Shown one piece after another: positions 17,974 to 42,707 of a stretch of DNA of 57,207 nt; positions within the stretch are counted from its first letter, which is position 1; each line of letters opens with the position of its first letter. Source of the stretch: Chthoniobacterales bacterium (lineage in GTDB: Bacteria; Verrucomicrobiota; Verrucomicrobiia; Chthoniobacterales; JAATET01); the NCBI GenBank assembly GCA_036569045.1, contig DATCRI010000034.1:1-57207 (forward strand). The letters run 5' to 3'. The notes beneath the pieces were generated by a model. It saw nothing but the letters and a program-made list of their open reading frames with translations. It was not told the DNA's origin and did not search any database. A program made the translations under genes and the position numbers.

Positions 17974-21675
<3,702 letters not shown>

Positions 21676-25691: not shown

Positions 25692-26786
25692 ATGAGCCGC
25701 ATTCGTTTCGAGATTCTGCCCCCTGTCGATCGTCCCGAGGAGCCGCTCGTGCTCTGCGGCAACGTGCCGGCGCTGGGAGAATGGGATGCCGCGCGCGGGT
25801 TGCGACTGCGCTGGGAGGGGGAGCGGCATGTCGGCTTGATCGAGGCGGAGACCGGAACGGCCCTCGAATACAAGGTGCTGCGCGGGAGCTGGGAAGCGGA
25901 GGCGGTGGACGCGTGGGGCAGCGTGCCGCCGAATGCGCGGCACGAAGTGTGGCTGGATGCGACGGTCTACCGCACGGTGGCGGATTGGAAGGATCGCTAC
26001 GCCGGCCGGCTGACCCGGGACCGCGTGTATTCGCGCGGGCTGGCGGCGTGGCGGGAGCTGCTCATCTGGCTGCCGCCGGGTTACGCCACGCATCCCGACC
26101 AGCGGTTTCCCGTGCTGTATTTCAACGATGGCGCGAACGTGTTCGATCCCGAGACGAGCCCGATCACGAAGGTGGACCTTGCGGTCGACGAGTGGGTGCG
26201 GCGCCTCGTGGCGGAGCGGTCGATGCGAGAGTGTCTCGTGGTCGGGATCTGCCATCCCGACGGATTTGCGGATGGGATGCGAAGCGAGCGGGAGGTCGAC
26301 CTGTCGGTGGAACTCGGCGGCGCGGCCTACGCGCAATTTCTGGCCACGGACCTCGTGCCGGCGATCGACCAGCGCTATCGGACGGTCCCGAAAGCCGAGG
26401 CGCGGCTCATTGGCGGGACGGCCCTGGGCGGACTGAACGCGTTTTACACCGCGCTCCACCATCCGGATGTCTTTGGCCGGATGCTTGGCCTGTCGACGAT
26501 CTTTGGGGATCTGTCGGGAGACGAGGGCGGTGGCAAATGCGGCGCATTGCGGATGCTGGCCGGTCGCGCGGACCTGCCGGCCGGGTCACGCTTCTATTTC
26601 GATCACGGCACCGAGGGGCCGGATGCCGGACTCGGTGATTGTCACCGCGAGCTTGCGGAGCTTCTGCGCGCCCGGGGATGGGAGGATGGCCGGGAATTTC
26701 GCATCCTGCGCGTGATCGGCGGCCGGCACGACGAGGCGTCGTGGCGCACGCGGCTGGGGGACGCGCTGCGCTTCCTTGCGGGCTAG
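25692..26786 (+). CDS. CBM20-esterase D-like protein lacking the catalytic serine
   Basis: This is a 364-residue protein with no signal peptide. Residues 3-90 resemble a CBM20 starch-binding module (LCGNVPALGEWDAARGLRL, EYKVLRGSWEAEAVDAWG). Residues 105-364 resemble the esterase D/enterochelin esterase hydrolase fold: VLYFNDGANVFDPETS, DLVPAIDQRYR, and the expected late histidine in GGRHDEASW. The nucleophile elbow, however, reads GGTALGG where the family has G-x-S-x-G, so the catalytic serine is Ala244 (codon 26421-26423). The protein is therefore probably non-catalytic or uses an altered mechanism. Its stop shares the palindrome CTAG with the stop of the convergent DUF6580 gene. Confidence 0.8.
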   Translation: MSRIRFEILPPVDRPEEPLVLCGNVPALGEWDAARGLRLRWEGERHVGLIEAETGTALEYKVLRGSWEAEAVDAWGSVPPNARHEVWLDATVYRTVADWKDRYAGRLTRDRVYSRGLAAWRELLIWLPPGYATHPDQRFPVLYFNDGANVFDPETSPITKVDLAVDEWVRRLVAERSMRECLVVGICHPDGFADGMRSEREVDLSVELGGAAYAQFLATDLVPAIDQRYRTVPKAEARLIGGTALGGLNAFYTALHHPDVFGRMLGLSTIFGDLSGDEGGGKCGALRMLAGRADLPAGSRFYFDHGTEGPDAGLGDCHRELAELLRARGWEDGREFRILRVIGGRHDEASWRTRLGDALRFLAG

Positions 26787-27385
26787 GCGCGGGCGGCGGC
26801 GAGCTCGGTGCCCCGGGGACGGACCGTGAAATGCATGATGCCGAGGAAGATGCCGGTGAAAAGGAGGTCGCTCGCGAGGGAGTAGGTAAAGAAAATCCAG
26901 GTCGGCGGGAAACCGGGGACGCCGACGGTGAGCGCCTGGATCCAGCCGGCCGGGGACTGGGCGTAGGCGGGGTTGCCGAACCAGGCGAGGGAATTCGTGA
27001 CGACGTAGAAGAGGGTGGAGTTGGCAATCACCGCGCCAAAGGTGAGCGGCGCCCCGGCGCCGAGGCGGCGCAGGCTGATGCCGGTGGCGACGCCAAGGCC
27101 GTAACAGGCGTAGCTCACGAGTTCCACCGGACTGAAGAGCGCGACGCCGTAGTGGAGATTGAGGAGCAGATCCGTGATGGCGAGCGCGACGAGTGGAACG
27201 AGCAGGGCGAGCGCGCCGGGCAGCACGAGAGCGCCGCAGACAGCGAGGGCGAGCACCGGCGAGAAATTCGGAAGCTCGGGCAACATCGTCGCGCGGAGAA
27301 GACGGAAGCCGGCGGCGAGGGTGATGAGGGAGATCGTCAAGGCCACGGCTGACCTGCGATTCAGGGAATTGAGCGTCGAGTTCAT
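26783..27385 (-). CDS. DUF6580 membrane protein, putative cobalamin-linked transport component
   Basis: This is a 200-residue membrane protein with five or six helices and the family signature NFSPVLALAVCGALVL near residue 40. DUF6580 proteins resemble substrate-binding (S) components of ECF transporters in size and topology. Its ATG overlaps the stop of the pseudopilin gene (ATGA), so it is translationally coupled and is the third gene of the operon led by a cobalamin riboswitch. That context makes uptake of cobalamin, a precursor or cobalt the leading hypothesis. This is inference, as no ECF ATPase or TonB receptor gene is in the window. Confidence 0.78.
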   Translation of the reverse strand: MNSTLNSLNRRSAVALTISLITLAAGFRLLRATMLPELPNFSPVLALAVCGALVLPGALALLVPLVALAITDLLLNLHYGVALFSPVELVSYACYGLGVATGISLRRLGAGAPLTFGAVIANSTLFYVVTNSLAWFGNPAYAQSPAGWIQALTVGVPGFPPTWIFFTYSLASDLLFTGIFLGIMHFTVRPRGTELAAARA

Positions 27386-28161
27386 TTGAGGTATTCGTAG
27401 CTGCCGACCGGCGCGAACCTCCCGATGTTTACACCTTTCAGACGCGAATCGCGAGTGGATTCGTCGAGGGGGAGAAATCCGCTCGAGCCGTCCGCGTAGC
27501 CGACCATGGCGAGCTTCCCGTGGCGAAAGTGAATGGTCCGCTCCCGCTGGTCGAAGCCGTAGAACTCCTCGAGCATCGGGCGCGACGACGAGGCCGGCGA
27601 TTGGAAGTCGTTGACCTGTGCGGAGGTGGCGAAGACGACCACGCGCGCGGGGTTGCTGAGTTGCCAGTAGGTCATGGTTTGCGTCTTTGCTGACGCGGAC
27701 CAGCCGCCGCCGATGACGACGTTGTAGCCGATGCCGAGGTAGCCGGACTTGAACTTGGGTTTGAACGCGGAGGCGTGGGCGGCAAAGCTCGGGTCGGGGG
27801 TGATGCCCTTTGGCACATAGCCGGCGAGAGGGCTTTGCGAGGGGTCGAACGCGCGGTTGCCTTCGCCGGAGCTCGCGCTGCCGGTCGACTCGAAGCCGAA
27901 CCAGTAGCGTGTGCCCCGGATGATGCTCCCGTCGTCGCCGGTGAACGACGCGGCGTTCTCACGGTATTTCCAGAAATGGTGGTCGTTGTCAGCGAGGTAT
28001 TGCGCGCCGCCGACGGAAAGTGAGCGGATGTTCTCCGTGGAAATGGCGAGCGAGGAGGCCTCCCAGACCTTCCAGATGGCCGGGGCGATGAAGACGAACA
28101 CGATGGCCATCACGACGACGCAGGCGAGCATCTCCATGACGGTGAAGCCGGCTCTACGCAT
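27382..28161 (-). CDS. Type II secretion pseudopilin-like protein, H-X9-DG type
   Basis: From ATG 28161 the protein has 259 residues and starts with a prepilin leader, MRRAG followed by FTVMEMLACVVVMAIVFVF. The Gly-Phe cleavage site and Glu at +5 of the mature protein are intact. The C-terminal part contains HGKLAMVGYADG, the H-X9-DG motif of a large pseudopilin-like family common in Planctomycetes, Verrucomicrobia and Lentisphaerae. The gene start overlaps the end of the PEP-CTERM gene by 8 bases and its stop overlaps the DUF6580 start, so all three are co-translated. It presumably assembles at, or is processed for, the cell surface by a PilD-like peptidase encoded elsewhere. Confidence 0.85.
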   Translation of the reverse strand: MRRAGFTVMEMLACVVVMAIVFVFIAPAIWKVWEASSLAISTENIRSLSVGGAQYLADNDHHFWKYRENAASFTGDDGSIIRGTRYWFGFESTGSASSGEGNRAFDPSQSPLAGYVPKGITPDPSFAAHASAFKPKFKSGYLGIGYNVVIGGGWSASAKTQTMTYWQLSNPARVVVFATSAQVNDFQSPASSSRPMLEEFYGFDQRERTIHFRHGKLAMVGYADGSSGFLPLDESTRDSRLKGVNIGRFAPVGSYEYLK

Positions 28162-28906
28162 GGCGGGCTCTTCGGTGCCAGAGCAGCGCGAGGCCGCCCA
28201 GGACGAGGAGGGCAACCGTGGCCGGCTCGGGCACCGCGGCAACGGCGGCGCCGGGGACGTGCGAGGTGTAGGCCGGATCCGTGATGCTAAACGCATACCA
28301 GCCGTTGTTCACGAGAGTGGTGCCGCCGGCCCCGTCGAAACTGCTCGTCCAGGTCGTGGGATAGGAAGAGTTCGCGCTCCCGGTGTAGAATTCCCAGAAG
28401 CCGTTATCGAGCCAGCCCTCGGCGTAGTGGTCGGCAGCTTCCGTGGGAAGGGCGTTCGCGGAAGAGAAAGGTGCCTCGGAGCCATTCGCGTTCGTGTTCA
28501 TGTTCGAGATTCCCGAGATGAAGATGGGCGTGGTGGCGTTGCCGTTCACGTCGACCGCGCCGGAGACGGAAAAGATGCCGTTGCCATTGTTATCATAGCC
28601 GACACCGTAGAGCGCCGGGCCGAACGAGGAAGCGCTGTCGATGCGGATAAAGAGGCGCGGATCGGCGGTGGCGATCGTCTGCAGCATATCCCAGGCGGTC
28701 ATCGTGCCCGTCCATGAGAAGCCCCAGGCGATGGTCGAGGTCGTCTTGCCATCGTTCCAGGAAATGACGAGTCCGGCGCGGTTCGTGCCGGCGCCCCAAT
28801 AGTTCAGATCGCTGAATCCGGTGACGGCTTGCGAGCGGCCGCTGGTGCAAATGGCGAGGGTGGCGAAAACGGCGATGGCGGCCGCTTTGAGGCGATGGGT
28901 TTTCAT
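28154..28906 (-). CDS. PEP-CTERM surface protein of the cobalamin-riboswitch operon
   Basis: From ATG 28906 the protein has 250 residues. A signal peptide (MKTHRLKAAAIAVFATLAICTSGRSQA) is followed by an Asn/Ser/Gly-rich exported domain (YWGAGTNRAGLVISWNDGKT, FGPALYGVGYDNNGNGIFSV). It ends in a canonical PEP-CTERM sorting signal: VPEPATVALLVLGGLALLW plus a basic tail RRARHA. An exosortase would cleave it. An AAAGGA ribosome site precedes the ATG. It is the first gene after a cobalamin riboswitch, so it is expected to be made when B12 is scarce, perhaps as a surface binder. The binding role is conjecture. Confidence 0.85.
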   Translation of the reverse strand: MKTHRLKAAAIAVFATLAICTSGRSQAVTGFSDLNYWGAGTNRAGLVISWNDGKTTSTIAWGFSWTGTMTAWDMLQTIATADPRLFIRIDSASSFGPALYGVGYDNNGNGIFSVSGAVDVNGNATTPIFISGISNMNTNANGSEAPFSSANALPTEAADHYAEGWLDNGFWEFYTGSANSSYPTTWTSSFDGAGGTTLVNNGWYAFSITDPAYTSHVPGAAVAAVPEPATVALLVLGGLALLWHRRARHA

Positions 28907-28932
28907 TGGTCCTTTCGAGATCACGGGAATTT

Positions 28933-28948
28933 GGAAGGACAGCCTTCC
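28933..28948 (-). promoter_or_regulatory. Hairpin between riboswitch and PEP-CTERM start
   Basis: GGAAGG and CCTTCC form a perfect 6-base stem with a four-base loop, 27 bases before the ATG at 28906. No T run follows in the transcribed direction, so it may belong to the riboswitch expression platform acting on translation, or stabilise the mRNA. Confidence 0.4.
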
Positions 28949-29014
28949 CCCGGTGAAAGGACTACCCCCAACACGGACGCTTGACGCGGCGCCGGTGCCC
29001 ATTTCAGGGCGGTG

Positions 29015-29105
29015 TGGTTTTCTCCGCCGGTTCGAGATCGGACTCTGACCGTTGCGCGACAGTGAGGGGATTGCACCCTGCTTTCCTAGGCCGGCGGATT
29101 GGTTC
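29015..29105 (-). ncRNA. Cobalamin (B12) riboswitch
   Basis: Read on the minus strand, positions 29077-29048 contain GGTGCAATCCCC, then TCACTGTCGCGCAACGGT. These are the conserved core segments of cobalamin riboswitches, and AGTCCGA follows as expected. An outer stem is formed by TCCGCCGG (29098-29091) pairing with CCGGCGGA (29030-29023). The compact span of about 76 bases between those arms resembles the shorter adenosylcobalamin variant class. It lies about 110 bases upstream of the PEP-CTERM gene and faces it, so it should repress the PEP-CTERM, pseudopilin and DUF6580 genes when cobalamin is bound. Exact boundaries are approximate. Confidence 0.88.
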
Positions 29106-29274: not shown

Positions 29275-30849
29275 CTATTCCGCCGCGGCGAGGTCCGGGG
29301 GCAGGGACTCTTCCTTGGCGGGCGCGAGCGCCATCTTGCCGCAGGCGAACAGCACGCCGCCCACGACCACGTAGGCGAGAGCCACGCCGGGCGTCTGGTT
29401 GATGCCGATCGCCTCACCGTGCATGAGGCCGAAGAAGGTGAGCAGGCCGCCGGCGAGGGCAAATCCGGCAGCCTTCAGGAACTCGCGTTCCACGATGTAG
29501 ACGGTGATCGCGGCCAGCACGACGCCAGCGAGGATCGAGCCGCCGCCGAGGATCGAGAGGCCGTGGTAGAAGATGCCGGTCTGCGCCATCGAGGCGATCA
29601 TCTCCGGCGTGATCTGGTGGATGCCGGCGACGGAGCCGAGCGAGTTGTCGATCTGGAGTTTGCCCCACGCGGCGAGCGACGGGATGATCGCCATGACGAC
29701 GGCCGGAGCGTGCTTGTGCGGGCTCTCCTGGAAGGCCTGCGAGCCGATGAGCATGCCGATATAAAGGAGGATGGGCGAGATCGCGACGACCGGGATGAGG
29801 GCGGTCATGAGCGAGACGACGCCGAACCACGAGAGCAGGATGACCATCACGCCGGTGGCGGCGGAGTAACCGATGCGGCCGCCCATGGCCTTCCAGCCGG
29901 GATGGCCGATGTAGACGGCGTTGATGTAGGGATTGCCCATGAGGCAGCCGATGAGGCTGATCACGCCGTCGGCGGTGAGCACGCGTGTCGTGGGATAGTC
30001 GTCTCCGGCGGCGGAGGCGCTCACGACGTTATCCATGGCCTCGACGAGGTCGTAGATGCCGAAGGGAATCGCGGTGACGAGGATGATGCTGAGCAGGCCC
30101 CAGTTCAGGCCGCTGAAGATGAGGCCGAGGACTGGCACGGGGGCGGAGAAACCGAAACCGGCGAAGGAGGTCTTCAGCGTTTCGAGGTTCATTCCGCCGA
30201 AGTTGAAGCCGAAGAGATTCGACCCCCAGGCGATGAGCGTGCCGGCGGCGATGGCGACGAGGCCGGCGGGAATGCCGCCAAACTTCACTCCGCCGAACCA
30301 GCTCACGAGGATGATCGCGAAGCAGACGACGCCGACGAGCGGAGTCATGAACATTTCCAGGGCGGGCTTCATCGAGATGAAGGTGATCGAGACGCCGGCG
30401 AGTGCGCCGAGCAGCGCGGCCTTCGGCGTGATCTTTCGAACGATCGGGGCGAGGAAGCCGCCGCCCATCAGGATGAAGCTCTGGATGAACACCCAGACGA
30501 GACCGGCCTGCCAGGCCTTCACGGGATCGCCCGTGGCGAGCTTGATCGGGAGCATGATGACCAGCGTGACGATGAACATGTGCGGCACGCTGATCCCCGA
30601 GGGCAGCGCGCAGACATCCGTCCGTCCGGTCTGCTTTGCCAGCCGGTAGGCCAGCCACGCGTAGTAGAAGGTGCTCAGGCACATCATCATGCCGGCGGCC
30701 GGGAGGATGTGCTTGAAGACCATGTCCGGGGGCATTTTCAGCACGTAGAGCAGCAGGCCGCTGAGGGTGAGCAGGTTGACCAGGATGTTGGTGCCGAAGC
30801 CGAAAAAGGCATTCCAGTCTCCGGGCACCCAGATTTTGGGTTTGTTCAT
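29275..30849 (-). CDS. NCS2/AzgA-like permease, putative ureide or N-heterocycle transporter
   Basis: This is a 524-residue inner-membrane transporter with about 13 helices, related to xanthine/uracil/guanine permeases of the NCS2 superfamily. Signature-like stretches include GRTDVCALPSGISVPHMFIV near residue 80 and PFGIYDLVEAMDNVVSA near residue 270, where NCS2 proteins carry substrate-contacting acidic residues. It lies 28 bases after an isochorismatase-family amidohydrolase gene on the same strand, so it likely imports that enzyme's substrate or a related nitrogen-rich compound (triuret, biuret, ureide or pyrimidine product). The precise substrate is not readable from sequence. Confidence 0.82.
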   Translation of the reverse strand: MNKPKIWVPGDWNAFFGFGTNILVNLLTLSGLLLYVLKMPPDMVFKHILPAAGMMMCLSTFYYAWLAYRLAKQTGRTDVCALPSGISVPHMFIVTLVIMLPIKLATGDPVKAWQAGLVWVFIQSFILMGGGFLAPIVRKITPKAALLGALAGVSITFISMKPALEMFMTPLVGVVCFAIILVSWFGGVKFGGIPAGLVAIAAGTLIAWGSNLFGFNFGGMNLETLKTSFAGFGFSAPVPVLGLIFSGLNWGLLSIILVTAIPFGIYDLVEAMDNVVSASAAGDDYPTTRVLTADGVISLIGCLMGNPYINAVYIGHPGWKAMGGRIGYSAATGVMVILLSWFGVVSLMTALIPVVAISPILLYIGMLIGSQAFQESPHKHAPAVVMAIIPSLAAWGKLQIDNSLGSVAGIHQITPEMIASMAQTGIFYHGLSILGGGSILAGVVLAAITVYIVEREFLKAAGFALAGGLLTFFGLMHGEAIGINQTPGVALAYVVVGGVLFACGKMALAPAKEESLPPDLAAAE

Positions 30850-30877
30850 GATGATGTGTCTTGGTGTGGTGGCGTGG

Positions 30878-31543
30878 TTAGCTGAGGGCGGCGAGGATGT
30901 CGTCGGAGTGGGTGACCCAGCCGAAGATACCGCACTGGGCGATGATCATTTTGAGGCCCATTTCCTGAAACTCGGGGAAGTAGGAGCCGACGCAGTCCGA
31001 CGGCACGAGGCAGTCGTAGCCGCGGTCGTTGGCCTCGCGGACGGTCGTGTTCACGCACACCTCGGTGGTGACGCCGGTGACGATGAGCTGGGTGATGCCG
31101 CGGTGCTGAAGAATGGTGTGGAGGTCGGTCGCGTAGAATGCCCCCTTGCCGGGTTTGTCGATGATCGGCTCGTGCGGCAGGGGATAGAGCTCGGGAATGA
31201 TGTCGTGGCCGCTCTCGCCGCGCACGAGGATGCGCCCCATCGGGCCGGCGTCGCCGATCGTTTTCTCGCCGCGGGCCCGGATTTTCTTGGTTTCCGGCAG
31301 ATCGGTGAGGTCGGGACGGTGACCTTCACGCGTGTGGATGACCTGCGCCCCGATGGCGCGCCAGGCCTCGAGGAGGCGGCGGTTGGGCTCGATCGTCGGC
31401 CGGAGCTTGGCGACGTCGTTGCCGAGCATGCTGGCGAAGCCGTTCGGTTCGAGGAAATCGCGCTGCATGTCGATGATGAGCAGGGCGCACTTTTCCGGGT
31501 GCAGTTCGAAAGAGTAGGGTTCGGCTTTGACGGAAACAGGCAT
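30878..31543 (-). CDS. Isochorismatase-family amidohydrolase, triuret/biuret hydrolase-like
   Basis: From ATG 31543 this is a 221-residue cysteine hydrolase. The catalytic triad is Asp25 (LLIIDMQRDF), Lys130 (IIDKPGKGAFYATD) and Cys163 ([22 protein letters not shown]). A glutamine at 203 (AQCGIFG) corresponds to the substrate-recognising Gln of biuret hydrolase. It is clearly paralogous to the biuret hydrolase encoded at 36.8 kb (shared [11 protein letters not shown]-like, GRILxRGE and PGKG motifs), but differs enough to suggest a different substrate such as triuret or another ureide. It shares an operon with the permease and has a candidate sigma-54 promoter 30 bases upstream. Confidence 0.85.
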   Translation of the reverse strand: MPVSVKAEPYSFELHPEKCALLIIDMQRDFLEPNGFASMLGNDVAKLRPTIEPNRRLLEAWRAIGAQVIHTREGHRPDLTDLPETKKIRARGEKTIGDAGPMGRILVRGESGHDIIPELYPLPHEPIIDKPGKGAFYATDLHTILQHRGITQLIVTGVTTEVCVNTTVREANDRGYDCLVPSDCVGSYFPEFQEMGLKMIIAQCGIFGWVTHSDDILAALS

Positions 31544-31572
31544 GGCGGGTCGTGATGTCCGCGAATCCCTTG

Positions 31573-31589
31573 AGCTTCCGCGATGCCAA
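31573..31589 (-). promoter_or_regulatory. Candidate sigma-54 promoter of the amidohydrolase-permease operon
   Basis: On the minus strand the sequence TTGGCATCGCGGAAGCT has the invariant GG and GC dinucleotides separated by exactly ten bases, as required for -24/-12 promoters, and matches TGGCA in the -24 element. The -12 element lacks the usual TT. It ends 30 bases before the amidohydrolase ATG, and a sigma-54 activator is encoded in the neighbouring operon. Confidence 0.45.
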
Positions 31590-31674
31590 GTCGCCCCCGG
31601 AAACGCCGAATCCCTCACGTGGAGCGATTTACGTCCAAACGCGCCGTTCCGACCGGGGCGTCAGCGCGTGGCGG

Positions 31675-40528: not shown

Positions 40529-42256
40529 TCAGAACAAAAAGTAGCGCTGGGCCAGCGGCAGGCTGGCGACGGGATCGCAGCGAAGTTCGCGACCGTCGGC
40601 CTTCACGGTGTAGGTCTCGGGATCGACCTCGATCTTCGGCAGGGCATCGTTCCAGAGAAGATCGCGCTTGGTGACGGTGCGGGTGCCGCGGACGGCGACG
40701 AGCCGCTTCGAGAGGCCGAGGTCGGTGAGGGTGCCGCCAGCAAGGGCAGCCTCGCTCACGAACGTGACGGAAGTGGCGCTACGGGCGCGGCCGTGGGCGG
40801 CGAACTGGGGCCGGTAAATCGTGGGCTGCGGCGTGGGGATGGACGCATTCGGGTCGCCCATGTTCGCGCAGGAAATGAGGCCGCCCTTGAGAATGATCTC
40901 GGGCTTCACGCCGAAGAACGCGGGCTTCCAGAGGACGAGGTCGGCGAGCTTGCCGACTTCGATGGAGCCGATCTCGTGGGCGACTCCGTGGGTGCGGGCG
41001 GGATTGATCGTGTATTTGGCGAGGTAGCGAAGAGCGCGGAAGTTGTCGGCGGCGGAGTGCGCGGACGGGCCGCCCTCGAGCTTGCCGAACTGCGTCTTCA
41101 TCTTGTGCGCGGTCTGCCACGTGCGCGTGATGACTTCGCCGATGCGCCCCATGGCCTGGCTGTCGCTGGACATCATGGAAATCGCGCCGAGGTCGTGAAG
41201 GAGGTCCTCGGCCGCGATGGTCTCGCCACGGATGCGGGATTCCGCGAACGCGACGTCCTCGGGGATGTTCGAGTCGAGATGGTGGCACACCATGAGCATG
41301 TCGAGATGCTCGTCGATGGTGTTGACCGTGTAGGGGCGGGTGGGATTCGTCGAGGAGGGCAGGACGTTCGCCTCGCCGCAAACGCGGATGATGTCGGGGG
41401 CGTGACCGCCGCCCGCGCCCTCGGAATGGTAGGTGTGGATCGCGCGGCCCTTGAACGCGGCGAGCGTGGCCTCGACGAAGCCGGCCTCGTTGAGCGTGTC
41501 GGTATGGATCGCGACCTGGACGTCGAACTCGTCGGCGACGCCGAGGCAGGTGTCGATCGCCGCGGGCGTGGTGCCCCAGTCTTCGTGCAGCTTCAGGCCC
41601 ATCGCGCCGGCGCGCACCTGTTCGCGGAGCGGCTCCGGCGTGGAGCAGTTCCCCTTGCCGAGGAAGCCGAGGTTGACGGGATAGTGCTCCGCGGCCTCGA
41701 GCATGCGGCGGATGTTCCAGGCGCCGGGCGTGCAGGTGGTCGCGTAGGTGCCGGTGGCGGGACCCGTGCCGCCGCCGATGAGCGTGGTCGTGCCGCTGGC
41801 GACGGCGTGCTCGATCTGCTGCGGGCAGATGAAATGGATGTGCGTGTCGATGCCGCCGGCCGTGACGATACAGCCCTCGGCGGCGATCACCTCGGTCGCG
41901 GCGCCGATCGTCATCGTGACGTCGCTCTGGATGCCGGGATTCCCCGCGTGGCCGATGCCGACGATGCGGCCATGCTTGATGCCGATGTCGGCCTTGATGA
42001 CGCCCTGGACCGCGTCGAGGATGAGGGCATTCGTGATGACGAGGTCGGGGCACTCGGCGTCGAGCGCGAGCGAGGACTGGCCCATGCCGTCACGGATGAC
42101 CTTGCCGCCGCCGAACTTCACCTCGTTGCCGTAGCCGCCGTTCTCGAGGATGAGATCGCGCTCGACCTCGATGAAGAGTTCGGTGTCGGCGAGGCGGACC
42201 TGGTCGCCAACGGTGGGGCCGAACATCTCGGCGTAGAGCTCGCGGGTGAGTTTCAT
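40529..42256 (-). CDS. ureC: Urease subunit alpha (catalytic)
   Basis: This is the catalytic subunit of urease, which hydrolyses urea to ammonia and carbamate with a dinickel centre. From ATG 42256 it has 575 residues, the normal length. Nickel ligands are visible in [12 protein letters not shown] (His139, His141), the carbamylated lysine Lys222 in GLKLHEDWG, and the flap histidines in [21 protein letters not shown]. An in-frame extension of 12 residues upstream (MVSWCLGG and onward) is translated repeat sequence and not part of the protein. Repeat elements flank both ends of the gene. Confidence 0.97.
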
Positions 42257-42267
42257 GAGGATTTTTT

Positions 42268-42707
42268 CACCACCAAGGCACCAAGACACCAAGGAATATG
42301 AAGATTCATAGGGCGATGCGTTTGAGGCCCTGCTTGATCAGCGGGACGTTGAAGTTGATCAGGAAGGCGAGGTGGAGACCGGAGAGTTTGAGGTAGGTGA
42401 GGGCTTGGGCGTGGTGGACGGGGAGAAGAGATTCCACCGTCTTGATCTCGATGATGATTTGGCGTTCGACGACGAGGTCGAGACGGAGGCCCGCTTCGAG
42501 TTCCAAACCTTCATAGACGATTGGCAGTGCGACTTGTCGCTCGAAGGTCAGACCACGGCGGTGGAGTTCGTGGGCGAGGCAGACCTCGTAAACCGATTCC
42601 AAAAGACCGGGGCCAAGCGATTGATGCACCTTGAACGCGGCATCGACGATCTGAGAGGCGATTTCATCCACCTCCGAAACTCTTGGTGCCTTGGTGTCTT
42701 GGTGGTT
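42268..42707. mobile_element. CACCAAGG inverted-repeat element 2 carrying the GxxExxY gene
   Basis: The left end 42268-42294 and the right end 42681-42707 are inverted copies of the arms seen in elements 1 and 3, but here they enclose a 405-base gene instead of about 36 bases. The element fills the ureB-ureC junction. In the operon direction it starts at the ureB stop codon (TGA directly joined to ACCACCAAG) and ends 11 bases before the ureC ATG. Its architecture resembles a gene-bearing member of a family with short non-coding derivatives. No target duplication could be defined with certainty. Confidence 0.65.

Follow-up and report, generated by a model that had tools for sequence, protein, structure and literature searches.

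Extracellular bacterial beta-grasp domains resembling transcobalamin (SLBB domains) were earlier proposed to bind vitamin B12 (PMC1796856), and in Bacteroides the BtuB-BtuG-BtuH-BtuJ-BtuK systems (PMC6143338, PMC8941943, PMC12751083) and the DUF4465 binders (PMC13398666) comprise riboswitch-controlled B12-binding surface proteins; a C-terminal motif, IPR013424, occurs on 88 of 824 DUF4465 sequences (PMC13398666). Among membrane transporters, BtuM was described as a solitary vitamin B12 transporter (PMC6072759), and the B12 S-component CbrT needs an energy-coupling factor (ECF) module (PMC5997447). Here we describe a locus in a 57,207-nt stretch of a Chthoniobacterales genome (GenBank assembly GCA_036569045.1, contig DATCRI010000034.1; hereafter the window), in which an adenosylcobalamin (AdoCbl) riboswitch is followed on the minus strand by overlapping genes for a PEP-CTERM surface protein, a prepilin-like protein and a DUF6580 membrane protein. 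The operon very probably serves cobalamin acquisition, and it is probable that it is turned on when cobalamin is scarce and supplies a surface binder, a pilin and an inner-membrane importer.

The PEP-CTERM protein, the candidate binder, resembles the beta domain of transcobalamin, intrinsic factor and haptocorrin in its predicted fold, extracellular location and likely cobalamin ligand. It differs from transcobalamin and the SLBB proteins (PMC1796856) in having no sequence or Pfam match, a PEP-CTERM anchor and no partner alpha domain, and from the latter also in standing behind a riboswitch with a pilin and not with CbiO/CbiQ; judged by its modelled fold, it is a divergent transcobalamin-like set with a PEP-CTERM anchor. 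Like the Bacteroides proteins, it would be a riboswitch-controlled surface B12 binder, and there is a likeness to the BtuG type in Bacteroidota, where Chryseobacterium, Flavobacterium and Soonwooa have the binder domain and a DUF5074 propeller fused (E-values down to 1e-125) in proteins that also carry a Por secretion tail. Searches with the binder sequence and profile returned no relevant PDB match for BtuH, BtuJ (DUF4465) or BtuG, the Pfam scans detected no DUF4465, and sequence sets the domain apart from BtuH and BtuJ. Unlike the Bacteroides systems, the window operon contains a pilin and lacks BtuB. Like BtuM (PMC6072759), DUF6580 is a small membrane protein that would act alone in place of BtuCDF, in a genome without an ECF module. 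However, no sequence match between the two was found, and the invariant cysteine of BtuM has no counterpart across the whole family, since Cys50 is invariant in 8 near members but not across all 28. CbrT requires its ECF module (PMC5997447), whereas most DUF6580 genomes lack EcfT, and the similarity to CbrT is below significance. In the searched, mainly openly accessible literature, no earlier report was found that ties B12 uptake to DUF6580 or to a pilin.

A riboswitch-led operon and its candidate binder

Scanning of the whole window against all Rfam families revealed an AdoCbl-II riboswitch aptamer (RF01689) at 29097-29024 on the minus strand, with a score of 38.8 bits (gathering threshold 36.5 bits) and an E-value of 9.7e-6. 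No second RF01689 site was found in the window genome, and the genome scan gave no RF00174 match either. The conserved core and the 7-bp outer stem (CCGCCGG/CCGGCGG), from which an earlier note made on the letters of this DNA had postulated a cobalamin riboswitch, are both present, and the covariance model thus confirmed that prediction. Downstream lie three minus-strand open reading frames (28906-28154, 28161-27382 and 27385-26783) overlapping by 8 and 4 bases, which encode the PEP-CTERM protein, the prepilin and the DUF6580 protein in this order; all three family assignments scored above cut-off. The statement in the same note that none of them is a known B12 gene holds for annotation, but the first product has the predicted fold of B12 carriers.

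Among the 388 sampled genomes of the phylum, four contain all three genes together: the window genome (G000), G314 of the same genus, G334 of the same order and G047 of the same phylum. G314 has an AdoCbl-II site of its own before the trio (40.4 bits) and G047 an RF00174 site (73.6 bits), while the contig of G334 stops before the riboswitch position. The survey therefore found the riboswitch again before the same genes, but the trio itself is rare: the conserved and widespread unit consists of the binder and the pilin, and DUF6580 is usually located elsewhere. Profile searches detected the binder domain in 32 of the 388 genomes and in 34 public contigs of Verrucomicrobiota and Bacteroidota, including Chryseobacterium, Flavobacterium, Parabacteroides, Barnesiella, Kiritimatiellia, Lentisphaerae and an Akkermansia bin; no relatives of this domain or of DUF6580 were found in viral contigs. 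A cobalamin riboswitch precedes the binder domain gene in 24 of the 28 testable Verrucomicrobiota-group genomes (those with the upstream region scanned and uncut by a contig end), and this conservation excludes a chance association. At all 25 measured sites the riboswitch is on the strand of the binder gene, mostly less than 400 bases away.

The binder (28154-28906, 250 amino acids) begins with a signal peptide and ends with a PEP-CTERM anchor at residues 224-246 (nt 28237-28169), supported by PF07589 (26.3 bits, cut-off 20.7) and TIGR02595 (23.7 bits, cut-off 16). IPR013424 is presumably the same PEP-CTERM motif. Between them lies a domain of 180 residues with the pattern GxGxNRaalVxdWNdG...WGfrWdG..., and the AlphaFold2 model built from 28 sequences (predicted local distance difference test, pLDDT, 74; predicted template modelling score 0.75; core pLDDT about 90) showed a transcobalamin beta-domain-like fold at residues about 37-212 (nt 28798-28271). 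By VIA-align, the Z scores of which were used in place of Foldseek and do not exclude chains outside its list, the model matched haptocorrin (Z 10.9), intrinsic factor (Z 10.6), transcobalamin (Z 10.6) and ten further entries of vertebrate B12 carriers. The carriers ranged from Z 9.8 to 10.9, with root-mean-square deviations of 2.0-2.6 over 101-108 residues, followed by the bacterial 3u7z with Z 9.0, while the next unrelated fold reached only Z 4.1. Together with the riboswitch linkage, the modelled fold makes it highly likely that the PEP-CTERM protein binds cobamides.

In many riboswitch loci, the binder domain is fused to, or followed by, a second domain with the pattern ALGRP...FDHxVxDDPxNPYGxDFIVFGN (alignment A9; L054:4732-5631 and relatives). 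The members tested had no Pfam, NCBIfam or PDB match, and the domain is another candidate surface domain of B12 loci; its identification as the BtuH binding domain was rejected, as no PDB match was obtained. Bacteroidales proteins of about 2,100 amino acids (L144, L136) combine, in one chain, an N-terminal binder domain with a further stretch similar to it, numerous short repeats and a C-terminal half that resembles a propeller.

The operon prepilin and the outer membrane

The second gene (27382-28161, minus strand) encodes a prepilin-like protein of 259 amino acids with the N-terminal signal GFTVMEML, which passes TIGR02532 (17.5 bits, cut-off 16.3) and stays under the cut-off of Pfam N_methyl (17.1 against 21.2). 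The signal and the H-X9-DG type C-terminus are common to the H-X9-DG / DUF1559 prepilins of Verrucomicrobiota and Planctomycetota, but unlike these proteins in general, the operon pilins form a set of their own tied to B12 riboswitch operons. By the strict motif, 31 of the 53 binder loci (which include two duplicate pairs and seven Bacteroidota loci) have a prepilin gene on the same strand at most 3 kb 3′ of the binder gene; G314 adds one further binder-pilin locus, the pilin signal of which is missed by the strict motif, for a total of about 32. The corresponding controls were 3 for the matching upstream window and 1 for the opposite strand, and given the 11-49 prepilins encoded per genome, a chance pilin neighbour is unlikely. 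When the N-terminal helix was removed, the best match of each operon pilin was another operon pilin (31/31), with identities mostly of 40-79% among themselves and mostly of 20-30% to other pilins of the same genomes. The operon pilins also clustered in the pilin tree (3 changes against a shuffled mean of 15.6), although this tree, owing to long branches, does not show them as a single clade. Thus, the operon prepilin belongs to a dedicated subfamily paired with the binder gene.

Receptor-like genes lie upstream of the binder domain in the Chryseobacterium, Flavobacterium, Parabacteroides and Barnesiella loci. None of the nine binder loci with a TonB receptor (four of the Verrucomicrobiota group and five of Bacteroidota) contains a pilin, and no binder locus with a pilin contains a TonB receptor (p about 7e-5 for all loci and 0.006 without Bacteroidota, both uncorrected for relatedness). 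Since the two never occur in one locus, within the operon the pilin may take the place of BtuB. Assembly machinery is indicated by matches to the pilus/secretion ATPase family PF00437, nine in the window genome and 5-10 per genome. A part of the pilin in passage through the outer membrane, as opposed to display, is possible but less likely than not.

The window genome (completeness 98%) encodes one TonB receptor with adjoining ExbB/ExbD-like genes, which scores 166 bits with the siderophore receptor model TIGR01783, below its cut-off, and 36 with the B12 receptor model, the cut-off of which is 600. Its one FecCD gene was ruled out as BtuC by a partner ATPase that passes the heme-transporter cut-off (301 against 261), and no CbiQ/EcfT was detected. 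Consequently, this genome encodes the B12-dependent MetH, while no BtuB, BtuCD or ECF module could be recognised in it; beyond the operon, it shows no recognised B12 receptor or importer.

The strongest alternative is that the binder and the pilin only trap B12 at the surface or export the binder, while the single TonB receptor of the genome or another channel carries the vitamin across the outer membrane and DUF6580 across the inner one. The receptor of the window genome with its ExbB/ExbD-like genes, the use of type II secretion pilins in export and other genomes in which this binder is paired with a TonB receptor are all compatible with it. Nevertheless, that receptor scores best as a siderophore receptor, the pilin and the receptor are mutually exclusive within loci, and four binder-pilin genomes have no detected TonB receptor, though these are only 86-92% complete. 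We consider this explanation possible but rather unlikely.

In G370 (L071), a siderophore-type TonB receptor gene and a TonB-like gene stand directly before DUF6580, followed by metH. This pair was considered as a B12 receptor replacing the binder and the pilin, but the idea was dropped because the receptor passes the siderophore cut-off (313 against 223.5) and the locus has no riboswitch even at a lax threshold.

DUF6580 and the inner membrane

The third gene (26783-27385, minus strand) encodes a DUF6580 protein of 200 amino acids (PF20221, 98.4 bits, cut-off 27), a candidate solitary S-component-like cobalamin importer. In the phylum sample a FecCD-type permease was present in 253 genomes and DUF6580 in 50, and both in only 4. 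Among the 206 genomes with MetH, 44 had DUF6580 only, 122 FecCD only, 3 both and 37 neither (p = 7e-19, calculated like the other genome-profile values with no regard to phylogeny), and MetH was found in 47 of the 50 DUF6580 genomes against 159 of the 338 others. Two MetH-positive genomes with neither protein (G021 and G024, family f8, genus g10) both have an EcfT/CbiQ gene and may use an ECF-type B12 importer.

The exclusion is repeated within family f10, where 15 genomes had DUF6580 only, 16 FecCD only, 1 both and 0 neither. In 11 of the 14 FecCD genomes of this family that were checked, the FecCD gene and metH are 7-10 kb apart, in a locus that also contains btuB, btuF, btuC and often btuR, and a cobalamin riboswitch was found in 3 of 6 such loci scanned. 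The DUF6580 genomes of f10 retain a btuB homologue at the metH locus in 8 of 9 cases, the ninth being shortened by a contig end, whereas neither btuF nor btuC was detected at these eight loci; a metH locus with btuB but without btuFC fits the replacement of BtuFCD by DUF6580. These distributions show that DUF6580 displaces BtuFCD. EcfT is absent in 47 of the 50 DUF6580 genomes, therefore the protein would act alone, as BtuM was proposed to. The likely consumer of the imported B12 is MetH, the gene of which (17974-21675, minus strand; PF02965, 376 bits, plus B12-binding domains) is in the window; within the order of the window genome, DUF6580 is near metH in G000, G314 and G370, and probably in G334, where the contig ends inside the gene. 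On these grounds, DUF6580 can be expected, with reasonable confidence, to transport cobamides.

It was also considered that DUF6580 carries another vitamin or cofactor, such as thiamin or lipoate, and that its position behind the riboswitch is incidental to B12. In many genomes of family f8 (L038-L052), DUF6580 stands directly before pyruvate dehydrogenase-like genes, therefore its substrate may differ there, and a simple pattern search found no riboswitch-like core at the f8 loci. Furthermore, riboswitch-led DUF6580 loci were seen only in the window lineage and G047; most scanned loci of the family have other neighbours and no riboswitch, so DUF6580 was rejected as a B12-only family by gene context. 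However, the mutual exclusion with BtuC-type permeases in MetH-positive genomes and within f10, the location of the f10 FecCD gene near metH beside btuB and btuF, the excess of MetH among DUF6580 genomes and the membership of DUF6580 in the riboswitch operon of G047 make a different substrate in this operon improbable.

Leader control and the proposed uptake route

The PEP-CTERM gene plausibly starts at the ATG at 28906, with GAAAGGACC just upstream, although a longer open frame extends to 29257 and overlaps the riboswitch. In the centroid fold of the leader, GUCCUUUC (28962-28955) can form 8 bp with the Shine-Dalgarno region GAAAGGAC (28916-28909) immediately 5′ of this ATG, and the predicted expression platform accordingly spans 28909-28962 on the minus strand. 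The leader of G314 retains both GUCCUUUC and the Shine-Dalgarno element. The pairing and its conservation suggest translational control of the operon. As the whole leader folded no better than shuffled sequences (z 0.26) and so has no unusual stability, the prediction of the platform derives entirely from the 8-bp complement and its retention in G314. The riboswitch was identified by homology, and the AdoCbl-bound leader would hide the ribosome-binding site, while without AdoCbl all three genes would be translated.

According to the proposed route, the PEP-CTERM protein would be exported and, guided by its PEP-CTERM signal, reach the outer surface, where its domain, similar in shape to the beta domains of transcobalamin and intrinsic factor, would bind cobamides. 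The pilin would be assembled by the machinery for type IV pili or type II secretion and would carry or position the binder; it may also deliver B12 to the periplasm, a step for which other bacteria use the TonB receptor BtuB. DUF6580 would then move B12 over the inner membrane as a solitary S-component-like protein in place of BtuFCD and feed the MetH encoded nearby. The earlier note had envisaged joint cobalamin or cobalt capture by a surface-anchored, a pseudopilin-like and an S-component-like protein. For cobalamin each part gained independent support, the surface protein from its transcobalamin-type predicted fold and riboswitch linkage, the pilin from its dedicated subfamily and the membrane protein from the displacement of BtuFCD, while nothing points to the capture of free cobalt. 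The more far-reaching version, in which the dedicated pseudopilin and the transcobalamin-like binder replace BtuB and DUF6580 replaces BtuFCD, so that B12 gets into a Gram-negative cell without either classical machine, is possible, though we lean against it.

Several observations weigh against the acquisition route. The transcobalamin likeness of the binder is structural only, as its domain has no Pfam or PDB sequence match and none of its 29 members matched Pfam DUF4430 at E 1; the model is of only moderate quality outside the core, and Foldseek alone listed the B12 carriers without significance. The sole PDB match of the DUF6580 profile, 6fnp chain A, which is CbrT according to the chain length and the accession in the paper (PMC5997447), had an E-value of 0.15, below significance; hhalign gave a weak match to CbrT (67%), and single DUF6580 members matched ECF_trnsprt and BioY marginally, so that these likenesses are suggestive only. 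The DUF6580 fold model had a pLDDT of 53 and was not used in fold searches. To these are added the DUF6580 loci without a riboswitch, the pyruvate dehydrogenase-like neighbours in f8 and the disregard of phylogeny in the genome profiles. Moreover, the single siderophore-like TonB receptor of the window genome could pass B12 through the outer membrane, and regulation alone is no proof of cooperation among the three proteins.

This last point leads to the explanation that B12 is merely a signal, at low levels of which an adhesive pilus or a surface layer is built that takes no part in uptake. Surface structures made of PEP-CTERM proteins and prepilins are common in these bacteria, and a riboswitch demonstrates regulation only. 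However, the predicted fold of animal B12 carriers in the leading protein, the fusion of its domain to a BtuG-type propeller in btuB loci of Bacteroidota and its occurrence beside TonB receptors in other genomes render a signal without uptake very unlikely. A false riboswitch match, or a riboswitch that belongs to a different gene, is hardly credible, since, even though the score is only 2.3 bits above the gathering threshold, core, outer stem and position are conserved in G314 and homologous operons have strong RF00174 sites at the equivalent position.

Just upstream of the operon and on the same strand, the 29275-31618 region encodes a transport-like membrane protein of 524 amino acids, which had no Pfam match at E 1, and an isochorismatase-family hydrolase; together with the urease gene and ABC transporter genes further along the window, these possibly serve the use of nitrogen compounds. 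The RF02514 (5′ ureB small RNA) match at 41806-42098 on the plus strand (100.8 bits) runs antisense to the urease alpha gene, which occupies 40529-42292 of the minus strand; conserved urease coding sequence is a more probable source of it than a small RNA.

Many Gram-negative users of B12 have no BtuCDF and some have no BtuB, which raises the question of how the vitamin enters these cells. Our results provide DUF6580 and a so far unnamed surface domain with a testable function and, within the literature searched, link a pilin to vitamin uptake for the first time. If the proposed role is true, a riboswitch-controlled bacterial protein with an intrinsic-factor-like fold would also bear on the origin of the animal B12 carriers.

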